From: an uncultured Cohaesibacter sp.
Lineage (GTDB): Bacteria; Pseudomonadota; Alphaproteobacteria; Rhizobiales; Cohaesibacteraceae
Direction: 5' to 3'
NCBI RefSeq assembly: GCF_963666525.1
Contig: NZ_OY762905.1
Location: 3,389,501-3,453,500 of the forward strand
Length of the DNA stretch: 64,000 nucleotides
Position 1 is the stretch's first letter; every line of letters starts with the position of its first letter. The notes beneath the pieces are model-generated. The model worked only from the letters and a program-made list of their open reading frames with translations, made no database searches and was not told the DNA's origin. Made by a program: the position numbers and the translations under genes. Shown here in pieces: positions 49,072 to 61,273 of this stretch.

Positions 49072-52000
49072 TCAGTTGACGGGTTCGGCCGTCCGCGGCA
49101 GATCTTCCTCTGGGCTTTCGACCACCCGTTCTGGCGGGAATATGACCTCAACCAGCGTCCCGTGTCCGCGCTCGCTGGAAAGGTTGAACCGCGCCTTGTT
49201 GGCTTCAATCAGGGCCTTGGTCAGCGGCAGGCCGAGGCCTGTGCCTTCCGCAGCGCTGCGGGTGGTCGGTGATACCTGCCGGAAAGGCTCAAGCGCCCGC
49301 TTCATGTCATCCTTGCTCATGCCGATGCCGGTGTCGCGAATGCGCAGGATCACCTCGCCACTATCCTGTTGGGTCGTTGAAACGATCACCTGTCCACCCG
49401 GATGGTTGAACTTGACCGCATTGGACAGGATATTGAGGATGATCTGACGCAGAGACCGGCTGTCTGCAACCACATCGGGAAGCCGCGAAGAGGCAGATGT
49501 CCGGATGATGATCTGGCTGCGGTTGGCCTGCGGCTGCATGATGCCGACGCATTCTGCTACCATGCCATTGAGCGGAACGGCCTCGAACTGCAGTTCCATC
49601 TTGCCCGCCTCGACCTTGGAAATATCGAGCAGATCGTTGAGCAGGCTGATGATATGCGTGCCGGATATCTTGATATCCTTGAGATAGTCCTTGTAGCGTT
49701 CCTGTCCAATGGCCCCGAAACGCTCTTCCATCATCACTTCGGAAAAGCCGATGATGGCGTTGAGCGGCGTCCGGATCTCATGGCTGACCTTGGCCAGAAA
49801 TTCCGATTTCTTCTTGCTGGCCCGCTCGGCGCGCAGCTTCTGGGCCATCAGCTCTTCCTGCGTCCGTTTCCATTCGGTCACGTCCCGCAGCACCGCGCAG
49901 AAGCGGTTGGTGCCCGGTATCGATACCCGCCCCATGGTCATGACCAGCGGAATGAGGCCACCCGAACGCAGCTGGCCGATGACTTCCTGTCCGCCGTTGA
50001 TGAGGCTGGCAAGTCCGCTGTTCCTGAGCCGCTCGAGATAAGCGAGGGCATCCTTGTGACTCTCTTGAGCAAGCAGCGAAATGAACGGCCCTCCGGCCAC
50101 CTTGTGACGGTCCACCTCGAACAGCGCCTCGGCCGAATGGTTCATCCTGAGGATGTTGCCATCCCTGTCCAGCACCAGAACGCCGTCGGTGGCGGTATCC
50201 AGAATGGCTTCCAGTTCGGCGATCTTCTCGTCCTCTTCGGAGACGCCAATCGACGGCGGCGTGACCGGGGTCTCTTCAAAGCACAGCATGGCCGCAGGCT
50301 GATCGCCCCAGCCAATAGAGGAAATGTTGGCCTGAACCGAAATGGGGCTGCCGTCCTCTGTGCGTAGAGTGGTGCGGCCATTGGTTTTGGTCAGCCAGTC
50401 GCCGGGACGTCCGGAAAACAGCCCCTCCATGCCGCCTGCTTCATCAAGGGCATCCTCGGAGGCAAATTTCAGCAGGCGCAAGGCGGTCTTGGAGGCGAAC
50501 AGAACCTGGCTCTTGGCCGACACGATGATTGCCGTCTGCAGCTTGTTGAGCATGTCGATCAACGGTGAGGTCTTGTCCTGACGGTCCCACAGCGACTCCG
50601 ACCCGAGCGCAGCAACGCCCGCAACCGCCGCTGCCGTGAGAGCTGCCGTCCCCTCGATGGTGCCCGCCACCGGGGAGGCTTGTTGCAGATCGACTTGCGC
50701 ATTGTCTGCGTCGTCATCCATCGCCGAAATGACGAAGTGGTTCTCGGAAACAACCGGCTCGTCAAACAGCTCATCGCCCAGCGCTTCACCCGGTGTCGGG
50801 ATCTGCGGTTCCTGAAACTCGGGTGCGTCGTTGCCACCAGCTTCAAGGGGCACGACTTCATCAAGAGGAGAGGTGTCTTCAAGGCTTTCGCCTTCACTGG
50901 GCTCCTCCAGAGGCGCCGCTTCGGTCTCGTCCGGTGCAGGCATTTCCTGCGGTGTGAAATCTGCCAAAGGCTCAGCCAGAGAGCCCGCAAAAGGACCGGT
51001 CAAGGCTGCGGCAGGGCCTGTGTCTGTGGTCGAGTCGTCCGGCACCACGGGAGCTGCCTGATGTTCGTCCGTCTGCGGGAGAGGCGCTGCCGTTTCAAAA
51101 GACGGTGCATCGCCTTCAGTGGCATCCGGGGTTTGCTGCGGATTCTCCTCGACAGGCTGTGATGGCTCAACCGGCGCAGTCGCCTGCTCTCTGGCCTGTG
51201 CGGCCTGATCATGCAGCTGTTTCAGCCGTGGGTCGATGGACAGGATGTCCAGAAGGGCCTTGCTGGTGGCTGCCGACTTGTGCGCATCCTCCTTGCGCTC
51301 GCGAGCTGCGAGCAGGGCGCTGAGGGGCTTGTTCGCGGATTGCCATGGTAGGACCAGATGATCCTCCTTGCGCCGCGGCGGAATGAAGGAACAGAGCGGG
51401 CGGCGCACAAAGGACGGCTCGGGCTCGGTCTGCTTTTCGCCATCGTGGGAGGGACTCGCTTCTGGCTTGTCGACCTTTTCCACTTCGCTTGCGACCTGCT
51501 GCAGGATCTCATGGGTCGGGAAGGTCGGGGCAGGATCGGCCGAAACCTCTTCCTGCTCTTCCTCATCCTCGGTTTCCTCGTCGGAAAGCGCGGCAGGATC
51601 CTCATAGTCGTCATCGAGATCTTCGGCGGGCAACCGGCTTTCGAATGTCTCGTCGGACAGCACGTCGGCGATTTCCTGGAAGGCATGCTCTTCACCGGCG
51701 CTGAGCTTGTTGCCGCTCACTGAGGGCGAGTCTGCATCCCCGGCATCAGCCAAGGAAGGCGCGGCCACTTCACGCACGCCGGTGGCGCTGCCGCTGAGCA
51801 AAGTGTCCACGAGATCGTGGCGATTGCCAGCAGTCTGATCTGGTTGGGTCAGATCCGTGCCATCGGTCGCGGCTTTGGCAGCTTCTTCATCGTGCGATGG
51901 CTGGTTGGTCGTCTGGTCTTCTAATCCCTTCTCATTGTCTTCACACACGGCGATCACCCCGGTTGTTTCGACAGCGGCTTCTTGCGGCGTCCCCCGGCCG

Positions 52001-53664
52001 CATTGATCATCTGGCGAAATCAGTTCAGTCGTGGTTGCTACGGCATTCCAGGCAGCCTGGAGCAGGTCTGCGGATATTAAGTCATCAATTTGTGCAAGAT
52101 GAGGCAGGACCGTGGTTTGTCCACTCTCTTGTTGCATGGCTTCTGTGGTCAGTTCGGCCTCTGTGTCTGCTTCAGGCTCATGGCCTGTTGAGGCCATCAC
52201 GTCGGCTGGTCTGCAAAGGCCAAAGCCGCGATAACCCTGAAATCCATGAAGCCGGCCATAGATCGGCAGACCCGTCAGCTCTACTGCGATGCGGCAGTCC
52301 TCTCCTTCAACCGGCCACCAGACATCGAGGCTGGCCCAGGTATCACAGCTGGCAAAGCCCCTGGCGATGGTGCCGTCCCCGTCCATGTCAAAGCGTTTGG
52401 CGATCTCGGACCAGCGCATGCCGACAATGTCTGCGTTGCCGCGGCCCACGGCCATCGCCAGTTCATCGGAGACAAACTTGAAACGCCCGACCTCGTCGCT
52501 TTCCCAGACAAAGTGGAACGGTCCAACCGCGCCACTGGTGGGCTGGCCATGGTCACTGGCAGGCAGAATGGTCAAAGAGGCACCCTTGCCCTTGTGCGGC
52601 AGACGCAGCGGATAGACATTGTCGCCGGAGCGGCCCGTGGCAGCCTGCTTCTGCCGGAAGTCGGCAAGGTTGGTAACCGACCGGTCGCTTGGCTTTCCGA
52701 CGTTCTGCCCGGTCACCGGATCGGTAAGGGGAAGCGCAGATGGCTTGCCATCATCGCGATGGAACGGTGCCTGTTCAGCCCTTTGCAACAATTCAAGGCC
52801 GGTCGTCAGCCTGTCCCGGATTTCAGACAGCTCATCAAGGCCGAAGTGGTCATCGAAGACATCCGCGTCTGCCGCAGAAAACCCGGCTTCATCAGCCGGC
52901 TGATCAGGCGATTCCAAATCGGCAAAGGGGTTTTCAATCCACGGATCATGGGTCGGAACGGGACTGGCCGGATTGTGCACCAGAAGCAGATACCGGGCAC
53001 GCAGATCGTCTGAAACACGGGCAACAACAGCTCCTGTCTGGCTGTCGCAGAAGGGGAGAGAGCCTTCGCTAATCCGCTCATCACCATCCACTCTGGCTAG
53101 CAGTTTACCAAGGGCGACAGCGTTTCCGCCAAACGGCAGAAAGCCCTCGGACGACGCCAGCAACTGGCCATCCTTGTCGATTACTGCGGCGAACAGATCC
53201 TGATCTGCAGCAAGCGCCTTGAGTAGATCCGCTGTCGGCTCGACCGGCGCAAAGGCTATCTCGCGGGAGCTTTCGATAGCTTCCAGCGGCACCGAAGACA
53301 GAACCAGCAGTACGGTCTCTCCCTCTACCGTCAGCTTTTTGCAAAGACAGGACAATGTGACGAAGGACAAGCCGAGAAAGAAACGCAACTGGTCTAGGGT
53401 CGGCGTGTCAGGCCGTGCGTTGCGCGCCAGCCGCGCCAAATGGCGCCGGGCAGGGTGCACATCGCCAAAGCTGCGCGCCAACAGTGATTCCATGCTTGTT
53501 TCGGAGAAAAACGCCAGCCCGGCGGCATTTGCCCACAAGATGCGGTTGCCATCGGCGTTCCAGACCCACGCCGGGCGCGAGTCGAGCAGAACCGCTCCGA
53601 TCGTCGGATGCGCGGACAGAGTCAGGAAGGGTCTGGCCAGAGATGCTGCGGGAAACGTTGGCAT
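49072..53664 (-). CDS. PdhS/PleC-like PAS sensor histidine kinase, very large
   Basis: About 1530 residues from ATG 53664. Two or more PAS-like regions lie near the N-terminus (residues 30-90 and about 380-480, FVWESDEVGRFKFVSDELA). A 500-residue acidic, Pro/Glu-rich segment (DDDYEDPAALSDEETEDEEE) looks disordered. Further PAS domains follow (about 1010-1090, 1135-1250; ATDGVLVLDRDGNILRMNH). The dimerisation domain has His1295 in SHEIRTPLNAIIGFSE with ERYKDYLKDI, the pattern of the PleC/DivJ/PdhS kinases that act on DivK. The ATPase domain has ILSNAVKFN, DTGIGMS and GTGLGLPLTK. No membrane helix is evident. A role in cell-cycle and pole control is likely. Confidence 0.87.
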   Translation of the reverse strand: MPTFPAASLARPFLTLSAHPTIGAVLLDSRPAWVWNADGNRILWANAAGLAFFSETSMESLLARSFGDVHPARRHLARLARNARPDTPTLDQLRFFLGLSFVTLSCLCKKLTVEGETVLLVLSSVPLEAIESSREIAFAPVEPTADLLKALAADQDLFAAVIDKDGQLLASSEGFLPFGGNAVALGKLLARVDGDERISEGSLPFCDSQTGAVVARVSDDLRARYLLLVHNPASPVPTHDPWIENPFADLESPDQPADEAGFSAADADVFDDHFGLDELSEIRDRLTTGLELLQRAEQAPFHRDDGKPSALPLTDPVTGQNVGKPSDRSVTNLADFRQKQAATGRSGDNVYPLRLPHKGKGASLTILPASDHGQPTSGAVGPFHFVWESDEVGRFKFVSDELAMAVGRGNADIVGMRWSEIAKRFDMDGDGTIARGFASCDTWASLDVWWPVEGEDCRIAVELTGLPIYGRLHGFQGYRGFGLCRPADVMASTGHEPEADTEAELTTEAMQQESGQTTVLPHLAQIDDLISADLLQAAWNAVATTTELISPDDQCGRGTPQEAAVETTGVIAVCEDNEKGLEDQTTNQPSHDEEAAKAATDGTDLTQPDQTAGNRHDLVDTLLSGSATGVREVAAPSLADAGDADSPSVSGNKLSAGEEHAFQEIADVLSDETFESRLPAEDLDDDYEDPAALSDEETEDEEEQEEVSADPAPTFPTHEILQQVASEVEKVDKPEASPSHDGEKQTEPEPSFVRRPLCSFIPPRRKEDHLVLPWQSANKPLSALLAARERKEDAHKSAATSKALLDILSIDPRLKQLHDQAAQAREQATAPVEPSQPVEENPQQTPDATEGDAPSFETAAPLPQTDEHQAAPVVPDDSTTDTGPAAALTGPFAGSLAEPLADFTPQEMPAPDETEAAPLEEPSEGESLEDTSPLDEVVPLEAGGNDAPEFQEPQIPTPGEALGDELFDEPVVSENHFVISAMDDDADNAQVDLQQASPVAGTIEGTAALTAAAVAGVAALGSESLWDRQDKTSPLIDMLNKLQTAIIVSAKSQVLFASKTALRLLKFASEDALDEAGGMEGLFSGRPGDWLTKTNGRTTLRTEDGSPISVQANISSIGWGDQPAAMLCFEETPVTPPSIGVSEEDEKIAELEAILDTATDGVLVLDRDGNILRMNHSAEALFEVDRHKVAGGPFISLLAQESHKDALAYLERLRNSGLASLINGGQEVIGQLRSGGLIPLVMTMGRVSIPGTNRFCAVLRDVTEWKRTQEELMAQKLRAERASKKKSEFLAKVSHEIRTPLNAIIGFSEVMMEERFGAIGQERYKDYLKDIKISGTHIISLLNDLLDISKVEAGKMELQFEAVPLNGMVAECVGIMQPQANRSQIIIRTSASSRLPDVVADSRSLRQIILNILSNAVKFNHPGGQVIVSTTQQDSGEVILRIRDTGIGMSKDDMKRALEPFRQVSPTTRSAAEGTGLGLPLTKALIEANKARFNLSSERGHGTLVEVIFPPERVVESPEEDLPRTAEPVN

Positions 53665-54061
53665 GGTTCTGTAATCTTGTTCATTGAAGGAAACCCTTAA
53701 CAAAAGGTTTCCGGATAAATGATTGCGTTAATAAACTGTTATGACATTTTCGTCTGGCGAGGTCCAATATTTCGAGTGGAATAACCTCGCTTATGAGCGA
53801 GCATGGTTAATCTGCCCAGGCTCATTATGGTAACCAATTATAAAGCACTTGAACGGGTTGTGCATAGTCATTTTTACAAGGTTGGATGCCAAAACCGGAT
53901 TGGCAACAAGCGGTTCCGCCTTGGTGCTGGGGCCGTCGGAGGCGGTTTTTACTGCCGGGGTCGTGCGTTGCTGCAATGATGTTGCGATGCAAAATAATTG
54001 CTGCTATGCTGCGATGCACAATGCTAGCCGATACCAACCCCGAAACGCCGGAGACAACTGC
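53665..54061. other. Promoter region of the phasin gene
   Basis: About 400 bases between divergent genes. The phasin-proximal 100 bases are full of TGC/GCA words, including TTGCTGCAA (53968-53976), TTGCGATGCAA (53982-53992) and TGCGATGCA (54010-54018). The kinase-side part is AT-rich. Confidence 0.5.
53968..54019 (+). promoter_or_regulatory. TGC-N-GCA motifs, candidate PhaR operators
   Basis: TTGCTGCAA, TTGCGATGCAA and CTGCGATGCAC lie in tandem 45-95 bases before the phasin start; the last two share GCGATGCA and are 27 bases apart centre to centre. PhaR, the repressor of phasin genes in alphaproteobacteria, binds TGC-rich dyads of this form. Confidence 0.6.
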
Positions 54062-55007: not shown

Positions 55008-55084
55008 GCAGTCGTAGCTCAGTTGGTTAGAGCGTCGGATTGTGGCTCCGAAGGTCGGTGGTTCGAATCCACCCGACTGTACCA
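55008..55084 (+). tRNA. tRNA-His (GTG)
   Basis: A complete 77-base cloverleaf including the encoded CCA. The anticodon arm is TCGGA-TTGTGGC-TCCGA, giving anticodon GTG. The T arm is GGTGG-TTCGAAT-CCACC. The acceptor stem GCAGTCG/CGACTGT has a G1:U72 pair, the discriminator is A73, and no extra G at position -1 is evident, as known for many alphaproteobacterial tRNA-His genes. Confidence 0.97.
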
Positions 55085-55716
55085 TTTCTACCCTGTGTTT
55101 TTCCTCGCAAAATTTATGAGAAAAACGCTCCGAGACGCGAGCGCGTTTTGTTGGTGTCAGCGCTTTGAGGCGGCACTGCAAATTGTCCTGCGTCTTGCAC
55201 GATATGCGGAGCGTGATGGAGCAATTTGTCCGGATGCTGCGTGGGATTTGAATATCCGCTTTGCGTGCAGGGCTGTTGGATGCACTTTTCTCCGGTCTCG
55301 CACGGTTGTTTCCTGTCAGTACAATCCTGCAAACCATGAAGACGAGTGATGATTGTTAAATTGGCGCCCGAAAGGCATGTTGCTGGTCGATGTCCTTGGT
55401 GATGGCGGCCTCTCCACTACCCGGCCACCTTGTTCTGGGGACTCTGCAAATGGCTGAAGCGCGTCGGGCTTTTTGCCGTTGGACGGGTGGTTGGCAGTGC
55501 GTTGGCATTTGCTCTTTCGCAAACAAAAAAACGTTTAAAACCAGCAATCAGTTTGCGTAATTTACCAAAAATTTACCACTGCCGTCAAATGTGGCACCGT
55601 CATTTTTACCGATAAAACCAGTAGCCGAAAACAACAACCTGAAACAGATATTCAGATGCTCTACTGATCTTTGAGGTTCATTTTTAGCACTAATCAAACC
55701 AGCTTCAGGTGCCAAA
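55085..55716. other. Spacer after tRNA-His, no gene recognised
   Basis: About 630 bases. AAAACGC...GCGTTTT (55122-55149) shortly after the tRNA can be its terminator. The part 55500-55720 is AT-rich. No copy of the tRNA 3' end that would mark an attachment site was seen here. Confidence 0.45.
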
Positions 55717-57555
55717 TTGAACGACTTGATTCTTCTTGATGAAAGCAAATGTACCGGGTGTAACAAGTGTATTGCTGTGTGTCCTGTCGATGGCGCGAAT
55801 GCCGCCTACATCGCAAATGGCAATAACAAGGTCCGCATCAACGCGGAAGCCTGTATCCAATGCGGCAAGTGCATTGACGTTTGCGATCACAATGCCCGCT
55901 ATTACGCCGATGATACGGATGCCTTTTTCGATGCCCTCGACAGAGGGGAGAAAATTTCCGTGGTTGTTGCCCCCGCAATCCGCTTCAATTTCCCGAATTA
56001 CAAAAAGCTGTTCGGGTATCTGAAGAGTATCGGTGTTCATCTAATTTATGACGTGTCATTCGGAGCCGACATCACGACCTGGGCCTATCTCAAGGCAATT
56101 GATGAACAGAAGCTGGAAAGCATCGTTGCCCAGCCCTGTCCGGCTGTTGTGAACTTCATCGAAAAGCATCAGCCCCATTTGATAAAGCAGCTCTCACCAA
56201 TTCAGAGCCCGGTTCTTTGCACGGCTATTTATCTCAAAGACTACAAGCATGTTCATGACAGGCTGGCGTTCCTGTCGCCCTGTATCAGCAAGAAGCAGGA
56301 GTTCGTCGACACGAACGAACGCATTTCCTTCAATGTGACCTACAAAAAGCTGAAGGCCTATTTGAAAGAAAAGAATGTCTCGATCGAGCGCTTTCAGGAA
56401 ATCGACTTTGACGATATCGGGTGCGGCCTGGGGCTGACGTTCAGCCGTCCTGGAGGTTTGCGGGAAAACGTCGAGTATCACACAAACGGACGGGCATGGA
56501 TTCGCCAGATCGAAGGTGTTGAGCATGCGTTCGAATATCTCAAGGACTATTCTCAGAGAATTGCGCAGCACAAGCCTGTGCCACTGCTCGTCGATGTCCT
56601 GAACTGTGCTCAGGGGTGCAATCTCGGGACGGGCACCGACAAGGACATCAGCATCGATGATGTTGACGCGAAAATGAATGCTTTGAAAGCGGCAAAGCTC
56701 AAGGAAAAGGAGCAGGAAACCGATGGCAAGGTTGTCTACTCGCTGTTTGAGCAGTTCGACAAGGAGTTGAGGCTCGCGGATTTCATCCGACGATATAAAG
56801 ACCGGTCCGATGAGTTCAGAAAGCAGAATTTCTCGGATGCGGAATTGGATCGTGTGTTCAATTCGATAAAAAAGCCTGATGAAGATAGCCGCGACATCAA
56901 CTGCTTTGCCTGCGGTTATGGCAAGTGCAAGGATTTTGCGGTGGCCATTCTCGGAGGCGACAATCATCCGGGCAATTGCATCGACTATAACCGCAAAAAG
57001 GCGGAGGACGAGCGGCAGCTCATCGAGACCAAGGAAAAAGACCTGAGGCTTCATGTTGCGGATATCACGGAAGCGCTCGATGAAGTTGCGGTTGGGGTGC
57101 GGGATGGGGCCGAGGCTCTTGCGGAAGTCAACATGCAGATCCAGTCGGTTTTCCGAATGGCGACGAGCATACGGCAAAACAGCCTGTCGGCAGAGGAGAA
57201 CATCAATCTGTTCGGCAAGGCCCTTGGTCAAGTTGTTGCCATCGCCGGGCAGACCAACCTGCTTGCGCTCAACGCCACGATCGAGGCGCAAAGGGCTGGC
57301 GAATTTGGTCGAGGATTTGCTGTTGTCGCAAATGAGGTCAAGAAACTTGCAGGACAGACGCGCAACGTCGTCGACTCGACCAAGGCAAGCGAAAAGAGCA
57401 TTCGCGGCAATAATGGCGAGCTTGCCGTGTTGGCGGGGGAGCTGGAAAGCCAGATGGAGAAGATTGACAGCCAGATCACGACAGTGTCTGCCATGATTGA
57501 AGAAACGACGGTGAAGAGCCACGAAATTGCCAATACCGCCAAGAAGATTGTCTAG
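55717..57555 (+). CDS. [FeFe]-hydrogenase-like iron-sulfur chemoreceptor (soluble)
   Basis: A 612-residue fusion with no membrane helix. Residues 8-60 are a two-cluster ferredoxin (Cys12/15/18/22, Cys46/49/52/56). Residues 80-320 match the large domain of [FeFe]-hydrogenases: Cys141 in [13 protein letters not shown] (motif L1), Cys189 in [11 protein letters not shown] (L2), Cys297 and Cys301 in [12 protein letters not shown] (L3). These are the four H-cluster cubane ligands, but the proton-shuttle Cys before Cys141 is Pro. A further four-Cys motif follows (396, 399, 404, 421). Residues 440-612 are a methyl-accepting signalling domain with [19 protein letters not shown]. It probably signals redox state or a gas to the chemotaxis kinase. 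Start TTG 55717 after AGGTG. Confidence 0.85.
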
Positions 57556-57765
57556 TCAGCCGGTGACCATGATCCGATCGGCGGTGCTCCAACGGCTATG
57601 ACATGGGAGGGATAACAAAGAGGTCTTTGATCCCTTCACGTGTCCATTTGAAAAGGCGGCAATCAGGTTAATCCGGGCTGGTTGCCAATTGCTTCACTGC
57701 ACCAATTCTGCAAAGCCATCCCCTTGAAATCATGAGTGGAACAGGGGCTCTCTCCCAGAGAAAGT

Positions 57766-57781
57766 GCATCACGCGTGATGC
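57766..57781. repeat. Perfect 16-base palindrome over the TPR gene stop
   Basis: GCATCACGCGTGATGC spans the stop codon of the TPR/hydrolase gene; an imperfect second copy (GCATCGCCTGATCG) lies just inside the gene. It may be a weak terminator or simply reflect coding sequence. Confidence 0.5.
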
Positions 57782-59445
57782 CGCATCGCCTGATCGAATG
57801 TGGCCTGCAGGGAACCCTCATGCAGCATGAAAAGCATGCTTTCGTGCGTATGGCAGGACAACACCTCCATAGATACGCAGTCCAACCCCTCCAGGTAGCG
57901 CGCGTGGCTGCTGTCCCGGTGATTGTGCTCGCCGTAAAAGAGCTTCACGACAGGAGGGTTTTGCGCGCGTGACAGGGTTGCCCGGGCATCCAGAAGCGAC
58001 GGATCAACGGTCTTTTGCAATTTGCGGGCAAGAATGTTTGCTCTCTTGTCCTGATAGAGTTTGGCAACGAACGGCACCTGGAAATTGGTGACCGCGCTGA
58101 ACGCAAGGACGAGTTCTGCCCCGAGGGCAAGGCCATAGTTGATGGCGGTCAGTCCAAAGCCGGAATATCCCGCCACGATAATGCGTTTGGCTCCGATCTG
58201 ATCGATGATATCCCGCACGGAAACGATGGTTGCTTCCAGTGAAGCGGAAAAGCCTTCAACGCCGGTGAGCCCCCAGTTCAGCCCCTTTTCAGCGTCGAAA
58301 TGAATGTGAGAGCAATGATACCGGGCCAGAAATGCGTCCAGAATCGGAGCGGGAATTCCCGTTCGAAAGGTGATGATGACATCATCGGCACCCGGTGCTT
58401 CGGCGACGAATAGTTTGGCATCCTCAGTCCAGACAATGCGATTTCGGCGCTGGCTACTGCCATTCAGTGATTTTAGGAATGACAGCACAGCCCCAATGTC
58501 GGCTCCTCCGATGTTGGGGTTGGCGGCATGGGCATAGGCAGAGCAGATCGCATCGATTTGCCTTTCGCAATCCTTATCGCCGCTTTGAAAGACTGCAGCG
58601 GCCTTTTGGAGGATCTCCTGCGTGAGCCCCATCTTGCTTTCATCAAAATGGGTAATCTGCCTTGCGAAGGCATCGGGCAGTGCCTGCCTGAGCACATCAA
58701 AGCGCTCCAGAGACAGTTCATGGTTGCCCAGCTTGCTCGGGATCTGTGCAAAGGTGACGAGGGCTCGCCGATTGCGAGCGTCCTTGCTGAGGATCGTTTT
58801 GCATATGGCTTCCGCTTCCGCGTAACGCCCCAGATCTTTAAGTGTAACGGCCGTTTCTGCCCGGGCCTCAAGGAAGTCAGGATGTGCCTTCGTTGCGGCA
58901 CGCAGCCATTCGAGCGCCTGCTTATGATTGCCCTTCTTGCGTTCCAACGTGCCAAGCGTCATCAGGGCCTGACGATGATCCGCCTCCTTGCCGATGATTT
59001 CCCTACACAGGCTTTCAGATCTTGCCAGCTCTCCCATGGCAAAGAGTTCGGATGCCAGCGCCATGCGGGCCTGGGAGAAACCCGGGTGAGCGTCGACTAC
59101 CTTCTGGAACCAGGAAGCTGCCTGTTCGTGCTGGCCCAGGCGACGAGCGCCAAGACCAAGCGTCATCAAGGCCAGTTGATCATCAGGATGAGCGGACAGA
59201 ACGGCGTGCGACAGGGTTTCAGCCTCTTGCGTGGCTCCTTCCGCATTCAAGGATTGCAGCAGGCCTCTTTGGGCTGGACGAAAGTCGGGCCAGCTTGCCA
59301 AAACGGCGCGAAATGACTGGATGGCCAGCGTATGGTTGCCTGTCCGACTGGCTTTGAAACCCCGACGATAGAAGGCGAGGGGGACGCTCTTTCGCCCAGT
59401 GGCCATCCTTGCCAGGGAACGGATATGGCGAATGATCCAGTTCAT
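57769..59445 (-). CDS. TPR-repeat protein with C-terminal alpha/beta-hydrolase-like domain
   Basis: A 558-residue protein. Residues 25-260 are about seven tetratricopeptide repeats (LGLGARRLGQHEQAASWFQK, LGTLERKKGNHKQALEWLR, AVTLKDLGRYAEAEAICKT). Residues 320-555 look like an alpha/beta hydrolase: DDVIITFRTG at an early strand, the nucleophile elbow VAGYSGFGLTAI with a GxSxG-type Ser, VVKLFYGEHNHRDSS near the acid, and a candidate catalytic His in LSCHTHESM. No signal peptide. The combination is unusual, and I know no named family. The radical SAM gene lies 93 bases upstream on the same strand, so the two probably form an operon. GGAG precedes the ATG. Confidence 0.78.
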   Translation of the reverse strand: MNWIIRHIRSLARMATGRKSVPLAFYRRGFKASRTGNHTLAIQSFRAVLASWPDFRPAQRGLLQSLNAEGATQEAETLSHAVLSAHPDDQLALMTLGLGARRLGQHEQAASWFQKVVDAHPGFSQARMALASELFAMGELARSESLCREIIGKEADHRQALMTLGTLERKKGNHKQALEWLRAATKAHPDFLEARAETAVTLKDLGRYAEAEAICKTILSKDARNRRALVTFAQIPSKLGNHELSLERFDVLRQALPDAFARQITHFDESKMGLTQEILQKAAAVFQSGDKDCERQIDAICSAYAHAANPNIGGADIGAVLSFLKSLNGSSQRRNRIVWTEDAKLFVAEAPGADDVIITFRTGIPAPILDAFLARYHCSHIHFDAEKGLNWGLTGVEGFSASLEATIVSVRDIIDQIGAKRIIVAGYSGFGLTAINYGLALGAELVLAFSAVTNFQVPFVAKLYQDKRANILARKLQKTVDPSLLDARATLSRAQNPPVVKLFYGEHNHRDSSHARYLEGLDCVSMEVLSCHTHESMLFMLHEGSLQATFDQAMRHHA

Positions 59446-59538
59446 GACTGTACTCCGTCACGATACTGTCGAGACCGAGGATGAACGGCTTCACGTCCTT
59501 GGACGGTGGATGTTTCAGGCAAAGGGTTCAGGGTCATT

Positions 59539-60630
59539 TCAGTAGACAAAAATGCGTGAGAGAACGGTCACCATTTCCATCCAGTCGCAAAAACTGCTTC
59601 TGGAGCAAAGGTCTTTCAGCGTGAGGTTGAGCTTGCTTGACCAGCCGCCTGAGTGCATGCGGCAGTGTCGGCAGTCGACTTCCTCTGAACAGCATTTGGC
59701 ATCTACCGAGGCCAGAGAGGTCGTGTAATAGCGCATTGGTTCAACGATGCGGGAATGGCAGTTGAGGGCAATACCGCTTTGCTCATCTATGTTGTGCAGG
59801 GGGCCCGGCGAAGTCGACCATCGATTGTAGTTGTGTGAATAAACCACAGTTTCGGGATAGGCATCAAGCAGGCCGGACAAGGTGTCCCGGATGCGAATGA
59901 GGTCTTCATCGCCGATACAAGGGTTGGCATTTGGGCGGCTTACCCTGAAAAACTGGTTATCGTTGGGGGCGGCATCGGTCAGTTTGTGCAGAAGCGATTT
60001 TGTTGGCGAAAACAGGTTGAATGTAATGGGTATGCCCGCATCTCGGCACAATAGGACTGCGGCTTCACATTGCTCGAAATTCCATGCGTTCACGGTATAC
60101 AAAACAATGGCACGCGGATCTTCGGCATAATTCTCCAAGGCCTTGTGAAAGACGCTGGCACCCCGCATGCGTCGATCCATGGCGTCGTCGCTTCCCCACA
60201 TGGAGATGCTGATCTTGAAGGGAATTTCGCGCGGAATGAACACACTGCCGTTGGTGCCAATGTTGCCGTGGGGGATATGGCGCGCAGCCACTTTAAGGCG
60301 CTCTTTTTCAAGAGACGGCTCAGCTCCGAGAAAATAGGCCATGGACACCCCTCTTTTCGCTTCTGCTGCGAAAAAGGCATCCCAAACTCCAAGATCCTGC
60401 TCCTCACTTAGTGTTTTGGGGTGCTCCGTATCGAAATAATAACACCCTTCGCAGCGCAGATTGCAGCGGGTCGAAGTTTCATAAAAGGCGGGTCGCCGAA
60501 AGATTCGGATGATCTTCTTTGTCTGCTCATATTGATCAGCCAGGTCGGGATTCTGCGCCAACAATTGCTTGAGCGCGCTAATGGTCGCGCGATGCATATC
60601 TTCCCTGGCTGCAGCTTCGGCAAGCCTCAT
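59539..60630 (-). CDS. Radical SAM protein with SPASM-like cysteine tail
   Basis: A 363-residue radical SAM protein. Cys56, Cys60 and Cys63 form the cluster motif (STRCNLRCEGCYYFD). The barrel continues with SMAYFLGAEPSLEKERL (the GGE-like motif reads GAE), GNIGTNGSVFI and FKISISMWGSDDAMD. After residue 290 a Cys-rich tail (CHSR, then KCCSEEVDCRHCRMHSG) resembles SPASM/twitch auxiliary-cluster regions used in peptide or protein modification. No small precursor peptide gene was found beside it. The TPR/hydrolase gene downstream is the probable partner. AGGTG lies just before ATG 60630. The substrate is unknown. Confidence 0.85.
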   Translation of the reverse strand: MRLAEAAAREDMHRATISALKQLLAQNPDLADQYEQTKKIIRIFRRPAFYETSTRCNLRCEGCYYFDTEHPKTLSEEQDLGVWDAFFAAEAKRGVSMAYFLGAEPSLEKERLKVAARHIPHGNIGTNGSVFIPREIPFKISISMWGSDDAMDRRMRGASVFHKALENYAEDPRAIVLYTVNAWNFEQCEAAVLLCRDAGIPITFNLFSPTKSLLHKLTDAAPNDNQFFRVSRPNANPCIGDEDLIRIRDTLSGLLDAYPETVVYSHNYNRWSTSPGPLHNIDEQSGIALNCHSRIVEPMRYYTTSLASVDAKCCSEEVDCRHCRMHSGGWSSKLNLTLKDLCSRSSFCDWMEMVTVLSRIFVY

Positions 60631-61117
60631 ACGTCACCTTGAAAAACAAAACTAAGGTATTGAATGGAACGGGTCAGGTGTTCTGGCGTCAATAAATGTC
60701 GCTTCAAAATTTGCCAACCATTGTTAGTAAAACTTGCATATATAGTAATATTGAACACTAATGGTTGAACGGCCAACATTACTCGCTGAACGACACAAAG
60801 AAAAGCGGGTCTGATGATTTTAATGTAAAATTCCAGAAGAACCTCCTGAATGCGCTCAATAGTAGTTGTGCTCAACTTGGGGTGGTGTTGCTGTTCAAAG
60901 CCATGCCCCAGCGGATGGCTTGTGCACAAGAGAGATGCCGACCGAGTGGGGTGCGGTTCCGTCGATAAAAATCATATTTGTTTTCAGCGCGTTGGACGCG
61001 AATGAGTCCGCGTTGCAGGGGGCAATTTTGCGCAACTTCAAAGGTCGGAGTTGCTCGGGCCCGAAGCAATTGCCCGCCAGCCTCTGGTAATTGCCATGGG
61101 TTTGCGCTTAAATCGGC
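60631..61117. other. Spacer between radical SAM gene and thi riboswitch
   Basis: About 490 bases. The radical-SAM-proximal 200 bases (60640-60850) are AT-rich and should contain its promoter. The thi promoter must lie before the riboswitch. A 100-residue minus-strand frame here is not supported as a gene. Confidence 0.45.
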
Positions 61118-61198
61118 TGCGTAACAGGGGCGTCCGGGAGACCGGGCTGAGATGAACCCTTCGAACCTGAACCAGATCATACTGGCGGAGGAAGTTGC
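61118..61198 (+). promoter_or_regulatory. TPP riboswitch (THI element)
   Basis: The conserved THI-box words occur in order: ACAGGGGCG, GGCTGAGAT, ACCCTTCGAACCTGA, CCAGATCAT and TGGCGGAGGAAG. They lie 75-150 bases before thiM in the operon direction. Binding of thiamine pyrophosphate should reduce expression of the salvage operon. GGTCCCTAAGGAACC (about 61203-61217) just after it may be part of the expression platform. Confidence 0.93.
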
Positions 61199-61273
61199 GC
61201 TTTGGTCCCTAAGGAACCCGATGGTTTCCGCATCGACCCGATGTCAATTCTTCCGCCTCAGTAGGAGCGAAGA

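Follow-up and report, generated by a model that had tools for sequence, protein, structure and literature searches.

A stretch of 64,000 nucleotides from an uncultured Cohaesibacter sp. (hereafter the window) encodes a soluble chemoreceptor whose input module is a homologue of [FeFe]-hydrogenases, and in this host the receptor is on balance probably a horizontally acquired, cytoplasmic [4Fe-4S] redox or O2 chemoreceptor with a HydS-type input and without the organometallic [2Fe]H subsite. Receptors of this kind are known, since HydDB already lists group C2 [FeFe]-hydrogenases as 'chemotactic (putative)' (PMC5037454). Beyond what an earlier note on this DNA had recognized, the receptor falls in a large catalogued category (HydDB C2), was found in no other genus genome searched, and shares 16 cysteines with every aligned member of its family. 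The putative sensory [FeFe]-hydrogenases owe their name to sequence and may or may not sense H2; a host with a complete genome and no recognizable maturases offers a clean test, as taxis there would mean that the H-domain signals without [2Fe]H.

Domain architecture and flanking sequence

The earlier note had described one protein joining a two-cluster ferredoxin, a hydrogenase large domain, a further four-Cys motif and a methyl-accepting hairpin, and the Pfam matches within a single 612-residue frame agree with that description (Table 1). These are Fer4_10 (residues 5-56, 46.9 bits), Fe_hyd_lg_C (PF02906; residues 79-304, 109.5 bits versus a cut-off of 22.1), FeS (PF04060; residues 394-422, 23.7 bits versus 23.0, marginal when taken alone), and MCPsignal (residues 507-611, 71.7 bits versus 34.6). 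H-domain homology and MCPsignal thus occur in the same frame, as in HydDB group C2. A frameshift separating the iron-sulfur part from the signalling domain, which the earlier note had raised, is excluded by the intact frame, and the relative L016 begins at the matching place in the alignment, in support of the TTG codon. With a highest 19-residue Kyte-Doolittle mean of 1.16, the protein should have no membrane segment; five of 78 relatives exceed 1.6. No gene was assigned between the tRNA-His gene and the receptor start, and the next assigned gene on the 3' side is convergent. A promoter/terminator scan gave no plus-strand promoter-like site in 55085-57768, and an FNR-like pattern (up to two mismatches allowed) had no match between the tRNA-His and receptor genes and 31 in the window versus 24.7 expected; nothing follows from either scan about anaerobic control.

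Table 1. Features of the receptor gene and its surroundings (positions are those of the window).
Feature	Position	Strand	Remarks
tRNA-His beside the variable slot holding the receptor gene	55008..55084	+	ARAGORN; tRNA-His in 7/7 genus stretches
Receptor gene, soluble chemoreceptor with hydrogenase-like input	55717..57555	+	612 aa, TTG start, intact frame
Two-cluster ferredoxin domain, residues 5-60	55729..55896	+	Fer4_10/Fer4_7; Cys 12, 15, 18, 22, 46, 49, 52, 56
[FeFe]-hydrogenase H-domain homologue, residues 79-304	55951..56628	+	PF02906; Cys 141, 189, 297, 301; Pro140; Lys192, Ser187, Glu195 invariant
C-terminal four-Cys motif Cx2Cx4Cx16C	56896..56982	+	PF04060; Cys 396, 399, 404, 421
Cytoplasmic MCP signalling hairpin, residues 425-612	56989..57552	+	MCPsignal 507-611
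TPR protein, neighbour of receptor	57769-59445	-	same slot; in three relatives without the receptor
Weak radical-SAM match, below cut-off	59539-60630	-	same slot; in three relatives without the receptor

Conserved cysteines and the hydrogenase pocket

All 16 cluster cysteines (eight in the ferredoxin, four in the H-domain, and four in the C-terminal motif) are invariant in the 60 aligned members, and none of the 60 rows lacks any of them. The aligned rows comprise the receptor and 59 of 78 full-length family ORFs, 19 others having been omitted as redundant; eight loci had been omitted earlier, of which L002 and L015 are the receptor's own gene and L018, L038, L051, L053, L072, and L100 are partial or duplicated. 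The four cysteines that the earlier note assigned to the H-cluster cubane are indeed all kept. In a four-row family profile (residues 6-305), they align with the H-cluster cysteines of the solved [FeFe]-hydrogenase 7p5h, Cys141 with the second Cys of SCCPAW, Cys189 with that of PCTAKK, and Cys297 and Cys301 with those of ACNYGC, the last stretch being recovered by the 60-row profile only as a separate, insignificant piece. They also match the host's own group A homologue (L001), and they sit on the cubane ligands when aligned with presumed group A, B, and C rows, groups that we named from length and motifs. The C-terminal cysteines have the spacing that characterizes sensory HydS (groups C/D).

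The proton-transfer cysteine of group A is lost, as in sensory HydS, and its position is occupied by Pro140, in line with the earlier note. Proline stands there in 59/60 rows of the alignment and in 78/79 family rows of a wider one, and the position holds Cys in all 18 group A and B rows and Ala (4/5) or Cys (1/5) in the group C rows. Ser187 and Leu295 occupy the positions of Met353 and Met497. Among the CpI residue labels, those besides Cys299, Met353, and Met497 are ones that we presume. A-P-[AS], S-P, K192, E195, and GG, which we take to be residues lining the [2Fe]H pocket, are kept in 79/79 rows including the receptor, and such conservation argues against a family-wide cavity that is empty and free to drift.

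A family with interchangeable outputs

A scan of genome contigs yielded at least 588 stretches, at least 577 of them encoding relatives of the receptor. Among the best 80 of these relatives, 67 are, to judge by record title, from Bacillota (Sporomusa, Desulfosporosinus, Clostridium, Lachnospiraceae, Selenomonadaceae, and others), and those from elsewhere include a few from Spirochaetales, Gastranaerophilales/Cyanobacteria, and Bacteroidota, one each from Calditrichales, Acidobacteriota, and Capsulimonadaceae, and two from alphaproteobacterial MAGs. Behind the hydrogenase-like module, Pfam recognizes MCPsignal in 50 of the 60 aligned members, HisKA with HATPase in five, GGDEF in three, and HD in two; the counts do not overlap and account for all 60 members, each with a signalling output. 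In a quick 84-row tree the type of output switched at least five times, judged by labels that we set (n = 79; 67 MCP, 6 histidine kinase, 3 GGDEF, 3 HD) by reading the C-termini, with MCP as the fallback label; the counts from Pfam are the safer of the two, and they bear out ten of the twelve GGDEF, HD, and histidine kinase labels given by eye. The labelled members are L077, L087, and L096 (GGDEF), L103, L104, and L105 (HD-GYP-like), and L067, L069, L078, L089, L092, and L093 (histidine kinase). Because one invariant 16-Cys input is combined with exchanged outputs, the module is best read, as far as sequence can tell, as a sensor input, and the swapped outputs are strong sequence evidence for such a role. 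The ferredoxin, H-domain, and C-terminal cluster may even form a portable cytoplasmic sensor cassette for MCP, histidine kinase, GGDEF, and HD outputs that works without [2Fe]H, a proposal that we hold tentatively, at slightly less than even chances; if true, it would concern a host organism that cannot make the H-cluster. The family is a natural toolkit for Fe-S-based signalling.

On a wide quick tree (SH-aLRT only, with an outgroup that is not one side of a branch), the family is split (99*) from the group C rows, including the R. albus locus L136, which is presumably the RaHydS of the literature, and group C together with the family is split from groups A and B (97*). Several long branches (L052_HKlong, L062_HKlong, L136_C, L137, L136b, and L095) are flagged as possible false joins. 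A single origin of the alphaproteobacterial copies (the receptor, L045, L016, and L017 as one clade) was weakly rejected (p-AU 0.032), and a clade of the receptor and L045 alone was not (p 0.72); these clades were named after the quick trees had been viewed.

Among 12 family loci with 20 neighbouring proteins, no shared operon partner was found besides the CheA-like genes adjoining the sister members L055 (Desulfocucumis) and L058 (Calditrichales), both of which have longer hairpins. The gene beside L055, the one of the two that was scanned, combines a CheA-type kinase with CheW and receiver domains, and a partial CheA-like match lies about 4.5 kb from L047. Other neighbours are a GAF-HD gene, which adjoins the longer histidine kinase-type homologue at L052 and L062, and short MCPs of a different make directly upstream of family members (L046:5096-5908 and L097:4683-5471), the one in L097 opening, by eye, with a Rossmann-like stretch (GAGQGG).

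Maturases and the possibility of H2 sensing

The earlier note had found no HydE, HydF, or HydG gene in the window, and the observation now extends to the complete host genome (one contig, 5.18 Mb, 99.98% complete), where profile searches gave nothing over the cut-off: the best matches reached 77.7 bits versus 325.6 for HydF, 30.3 versus 312.2 for HydG, and 41.9 versus 254.6 for HydE. The cut-off of each of the three profiles was exceeded by one of 14 control genomes, for HydF that of Thermotoga maritima. At E 1e-30, none of the 21 genomes searched for HydF (the host plus 12 further genus genomes and eight of the order) gave a match. The ten HydF-profile matches in the host are led by L003, presumably a GTPase of the EngA/Der type. 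The best HydE and HydG matches are one frame (L011/L013), which is CofH over the NCBIfam cut-off, and the second HydE match (L014) is likewise CofG, so neither stands as a maturase; the second HydG match (L012) reaches 24.9 bits. The CofG and CofH genes lie in tandem (L013, L014, G000:C1, about 4.574-4.576 Mb), which suggests synthesis of the coenzyme F420 chromophore in this alphaproteobacterium.

The genomes carrying relatives present another picture, with HydF over the cut-off in 42 of the 51 surveyed (those of 48 of the 80 loci plus three class genomes). The nine others comprise two with HydG over the cut-off, two with matches below it, and five with none, and these five are metagenome bins, one genome 78% complete, and one draft isolate, in which absence is weak evidence. 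The receptor family thus lives mostly alongside maturases, and none is recognizable in the host.

An H2 sensor with a complete H-cluster, in which H2 reacts at [2Fe]H and the cell steers along H2 gradients, has been suggested for HydS and group C2; in this host it would depend on an unrecognized maturation route, and we consider it unlikely here. The lack of maturases over the cut-off and the proline at the Cys299 position speak against it, as does a survey of eight Clostridium acetogens whose authors are reported to have dropped group C2 candidates for failing a check of H-cluster motifs (PMC9431212); among the species surveyed there is C. ljungdahlii, which carries the family member L094. 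The family as a whole may well include H2 sensors, given HydF in most of the surveyed genomes and the kept pocket. Ser187 and Leu295 moreover correspond to residues of TamHydS, which is reported to hold an H-cluster (PMC8163306), and from this correspondence, the pocket, and the distribution of HydF the family probably evolved with the [2Fe]H subsite. The host copy may simply have been inherited from a sensor that held [2Fe]H.

The genus itself supplies a further argument for H2 sensing. The host encodes a group A [FeFe]-hydrogenase homologue (L001:760-2619; G000:C1, about 1.851 Mb) behind a GltD-like gene, with a TIGR02512 score of 518 bits versus a cut-off of 406 and with TSCCPAW, PCIAKKDE, and ACPGGC kept. 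Equally strong PF02906 matches in a 620-aa frame occur in 12 of 17 other genus genomes, and eight of the 12 other genus genomes without HydF hold the homologue. A homologue with complete motifs in a genus where HydF was not found in 13 genomes hints that a maturation route may be missed, and a complete-motif group A hydrogenase without recognizable HydF is worth separate attention.

Genomic slot, probable acquisition, and possible coupling to host chemotaxis

A PF02906 search of 17 other genus genomes, of which one is only 64% complete, did not find the receptor gene, and close relatives (49-55%) occur in only three others among 385 genomes of the class. The gene lies in the interval between tRNA-His and thiM (window 55085-61273), a variable slot of 0.5-6.2 kb with differing genes in the host and six genus relatives. 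Of seven genus stretches, six have thiM 0.5-6.1 kb beyond tRNA-His, the distance in the window being 6.2 kb, and lack the receptor; the seventh stops before any thiM and likewise shows no receptor. Three of the six share the TPR and radical-SAM-like neighbours, and one stretch (G443) holds a different receptor in the slot, membrane-bound by eye, of which the tip alone matches. The GC content of the receptor gene is 0.515 versus 0.576 for the window, and the lowest 1-kb value nearby (0.47) covers the first part of the gene and the preceding bases. Because it was not found in the 17 other genus genomes and lies in the variable slot, the gene looks horizontally acquired. Elsewhere in the window, 49072-53703 (minus strand) encodes a histidine kinase of 1543 aa whose PAS domain is preceded by a very long acidic run, judged by eye to be probably disordered, and a cbb3 oxidase is indicated by the annotated features of plasmid matches (about 74% identity).

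The signalling end of the receptor was compared with that of host MCPs (24 rows from 30 loci, representing 23 distinct proteins, as one neighbour was read twice). The CheA/CheW-binding tip is conserved, with the motif LNATIEA of all host MCPs compared. One hairpin arm spans 90 residues, from the last FeS Cys up to the tip, and the other 101. These 101 residues after the tip start compare with 136-282, mostly 155-161, in the host MCPs, so that by this crude measure the receptor is about 55 residues shorter after the tip than most and does not share their length class. Joining of host receptor arrays is uncertain on account of this difference. The host has 34 MCPsignal matches, the receptor's being the weakest, and CheW domains at one site only, where a 941-aa frame is probably CheA.

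An acquired passenger, functionally uncoupled in this host by the wrong hairpin length and a missing cofactor and not yet decayed, would fit the short hairpin, the slot, the low GC content, and the failure to find the gene in any of the 17 other genus genomes. It is doubtful nevertheless, as the frame is intact with all 16 cluster cysteines and the tip motif is that of the host MCPs. Identity to 57 of the 59 aligned relatives is at most 52%, and the end branch of the receptor amounts to 0.49 changes per column, a long time without decay, though part of it was perhaps spent outside this lineage.

Proposed mechanism

For the preferred reading, a redox or O2 chemoreceptor without [2Fe]H, the input is a HydS-type module of ferredoxin, H-domain, and C-terminal Cx2Cx4Cx16C cluster, which in this host would most likely contain four [4Fe-4S] clusters and lack the organometallic [2Fe]H subsite. 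In its favour stand the intact frame with its invariant cysteines, the exchanged outputs, the CheA-like genes beside L055 and L058, the lack of maturases over the cut-off, the proline at the proton-transfer position, the precedent of Nar1 described below, the CheW domains and MCPs of the host, and the cbb3 oxidase in the window; the HydF of most surveyed genomes with relatives, the kept pocket, and the short hairpin weigh against it. Cytoplasmic electrons, or the loss of a labile cluster to O2, would alter the state of the H-domain and the C-terminal cluster. The latter stands directly before the hairpin, 90 residues before the tip, and could shift the hairpin and so modulate CheA; the protein would then work as a redox or O2 receptor of an energy-taxis-like kind. 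We infer the direction of signalling, from clusters to hairpin, together with the coupling to host CheA. A relay through the C-terminal cluster would be the obvious link, but the corresponding cluster of TamHydS was reported not to be reduced by H2 (PMC13104023). Of the redox or gas taxis that the earlier note suggested, the soluble chemoreceptor with a hydrogenase-like sensor stands, on the strength of the domains, the hydropathy, and the four kinds of output, and the stimulus is still something that we infer. Sensing of CO has general plausibility and no support beyond it. A catalytic hydrogenase with an accidental signalling tail, which the PF02906 homology would allow, is very improbable and already disfavoured by the proline at the proton-transfer position, the signalling outputs of 60/60 aligned members, and the lack of maturases over the cut-off in the host.

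Comparison with known systems

The receptor shares with HydDB group C2, where its architecture places it, an H-domain homologue linked to methyl-accepting chemotaxis signalling, and differs in that its host has no recognizable maturases. Reports on this and the related group include H-cluster motifs hardly found in C1 proteins (PMC11406978) and C2 genes that were commoner in the rumen microbiome of one cattle breed (PMC10811737). A literature search found no paper on hydrogenase-GGDEF fusions, which is not proof of their absence from print.

The Cx2Cx4Cx16C spacing is reported for the TmHydS and TamHydS subclasses (Land et al., PMC8163306). TmHydS (group C) has the same two-cluster ferredoxin, H-domain, and C-terminal four-Cys motif as the receptor, with a PAS domain reported instead of the MCP hairpin. 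The presumed group C rows (L019, L020, L021, L039, and L136 from R. albus) branch next to the receptor family, and the family lies with them against the A and B rows, on a separate starred branch of the quick tree with its long branches. They have Ala or Cys at Cys299 where the family has Pro, and Gly (5/5) at Met353, and at the R. albus locus a SpoIIE phosphatase gene adjoins instead of an MCP hairpin. TamHydS (group D), compared by description, agrees with the receptor in the Cx2Cx4Cx16C spacing and in Ser at Met353 and Leu at Met497 (PMC8163306), and differs in having Ala at Cys299 (PMC10407848) and, in the accounts cited, no reported output domain; an alternative proton path through Glu252/Glu289 (TamHydS numbering) is described for group D (PMC10407848).

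A last parallel, again by description, is Nar1/Narf/IOP1, in which an H-domain homologue has retained the cubane site although the organisms concerned lack maturases, and the Fe-S clusters of Nar1 are described as O2-labile, perhaps with [2Fe-2S] in the [2Fe]H cavity (PMC12621388). These proteins differ in being a eukaryotic CIA factor with no MCP output. If the proposal of a portable cassette is true, the alphaproteobacterial copy would show a module of hydrogenase descent put to new use in a pure [4Fe-4S], or Nar1-like [4Fe-4S]/[2Fe-2S], O2 or redox chemoreceptor.
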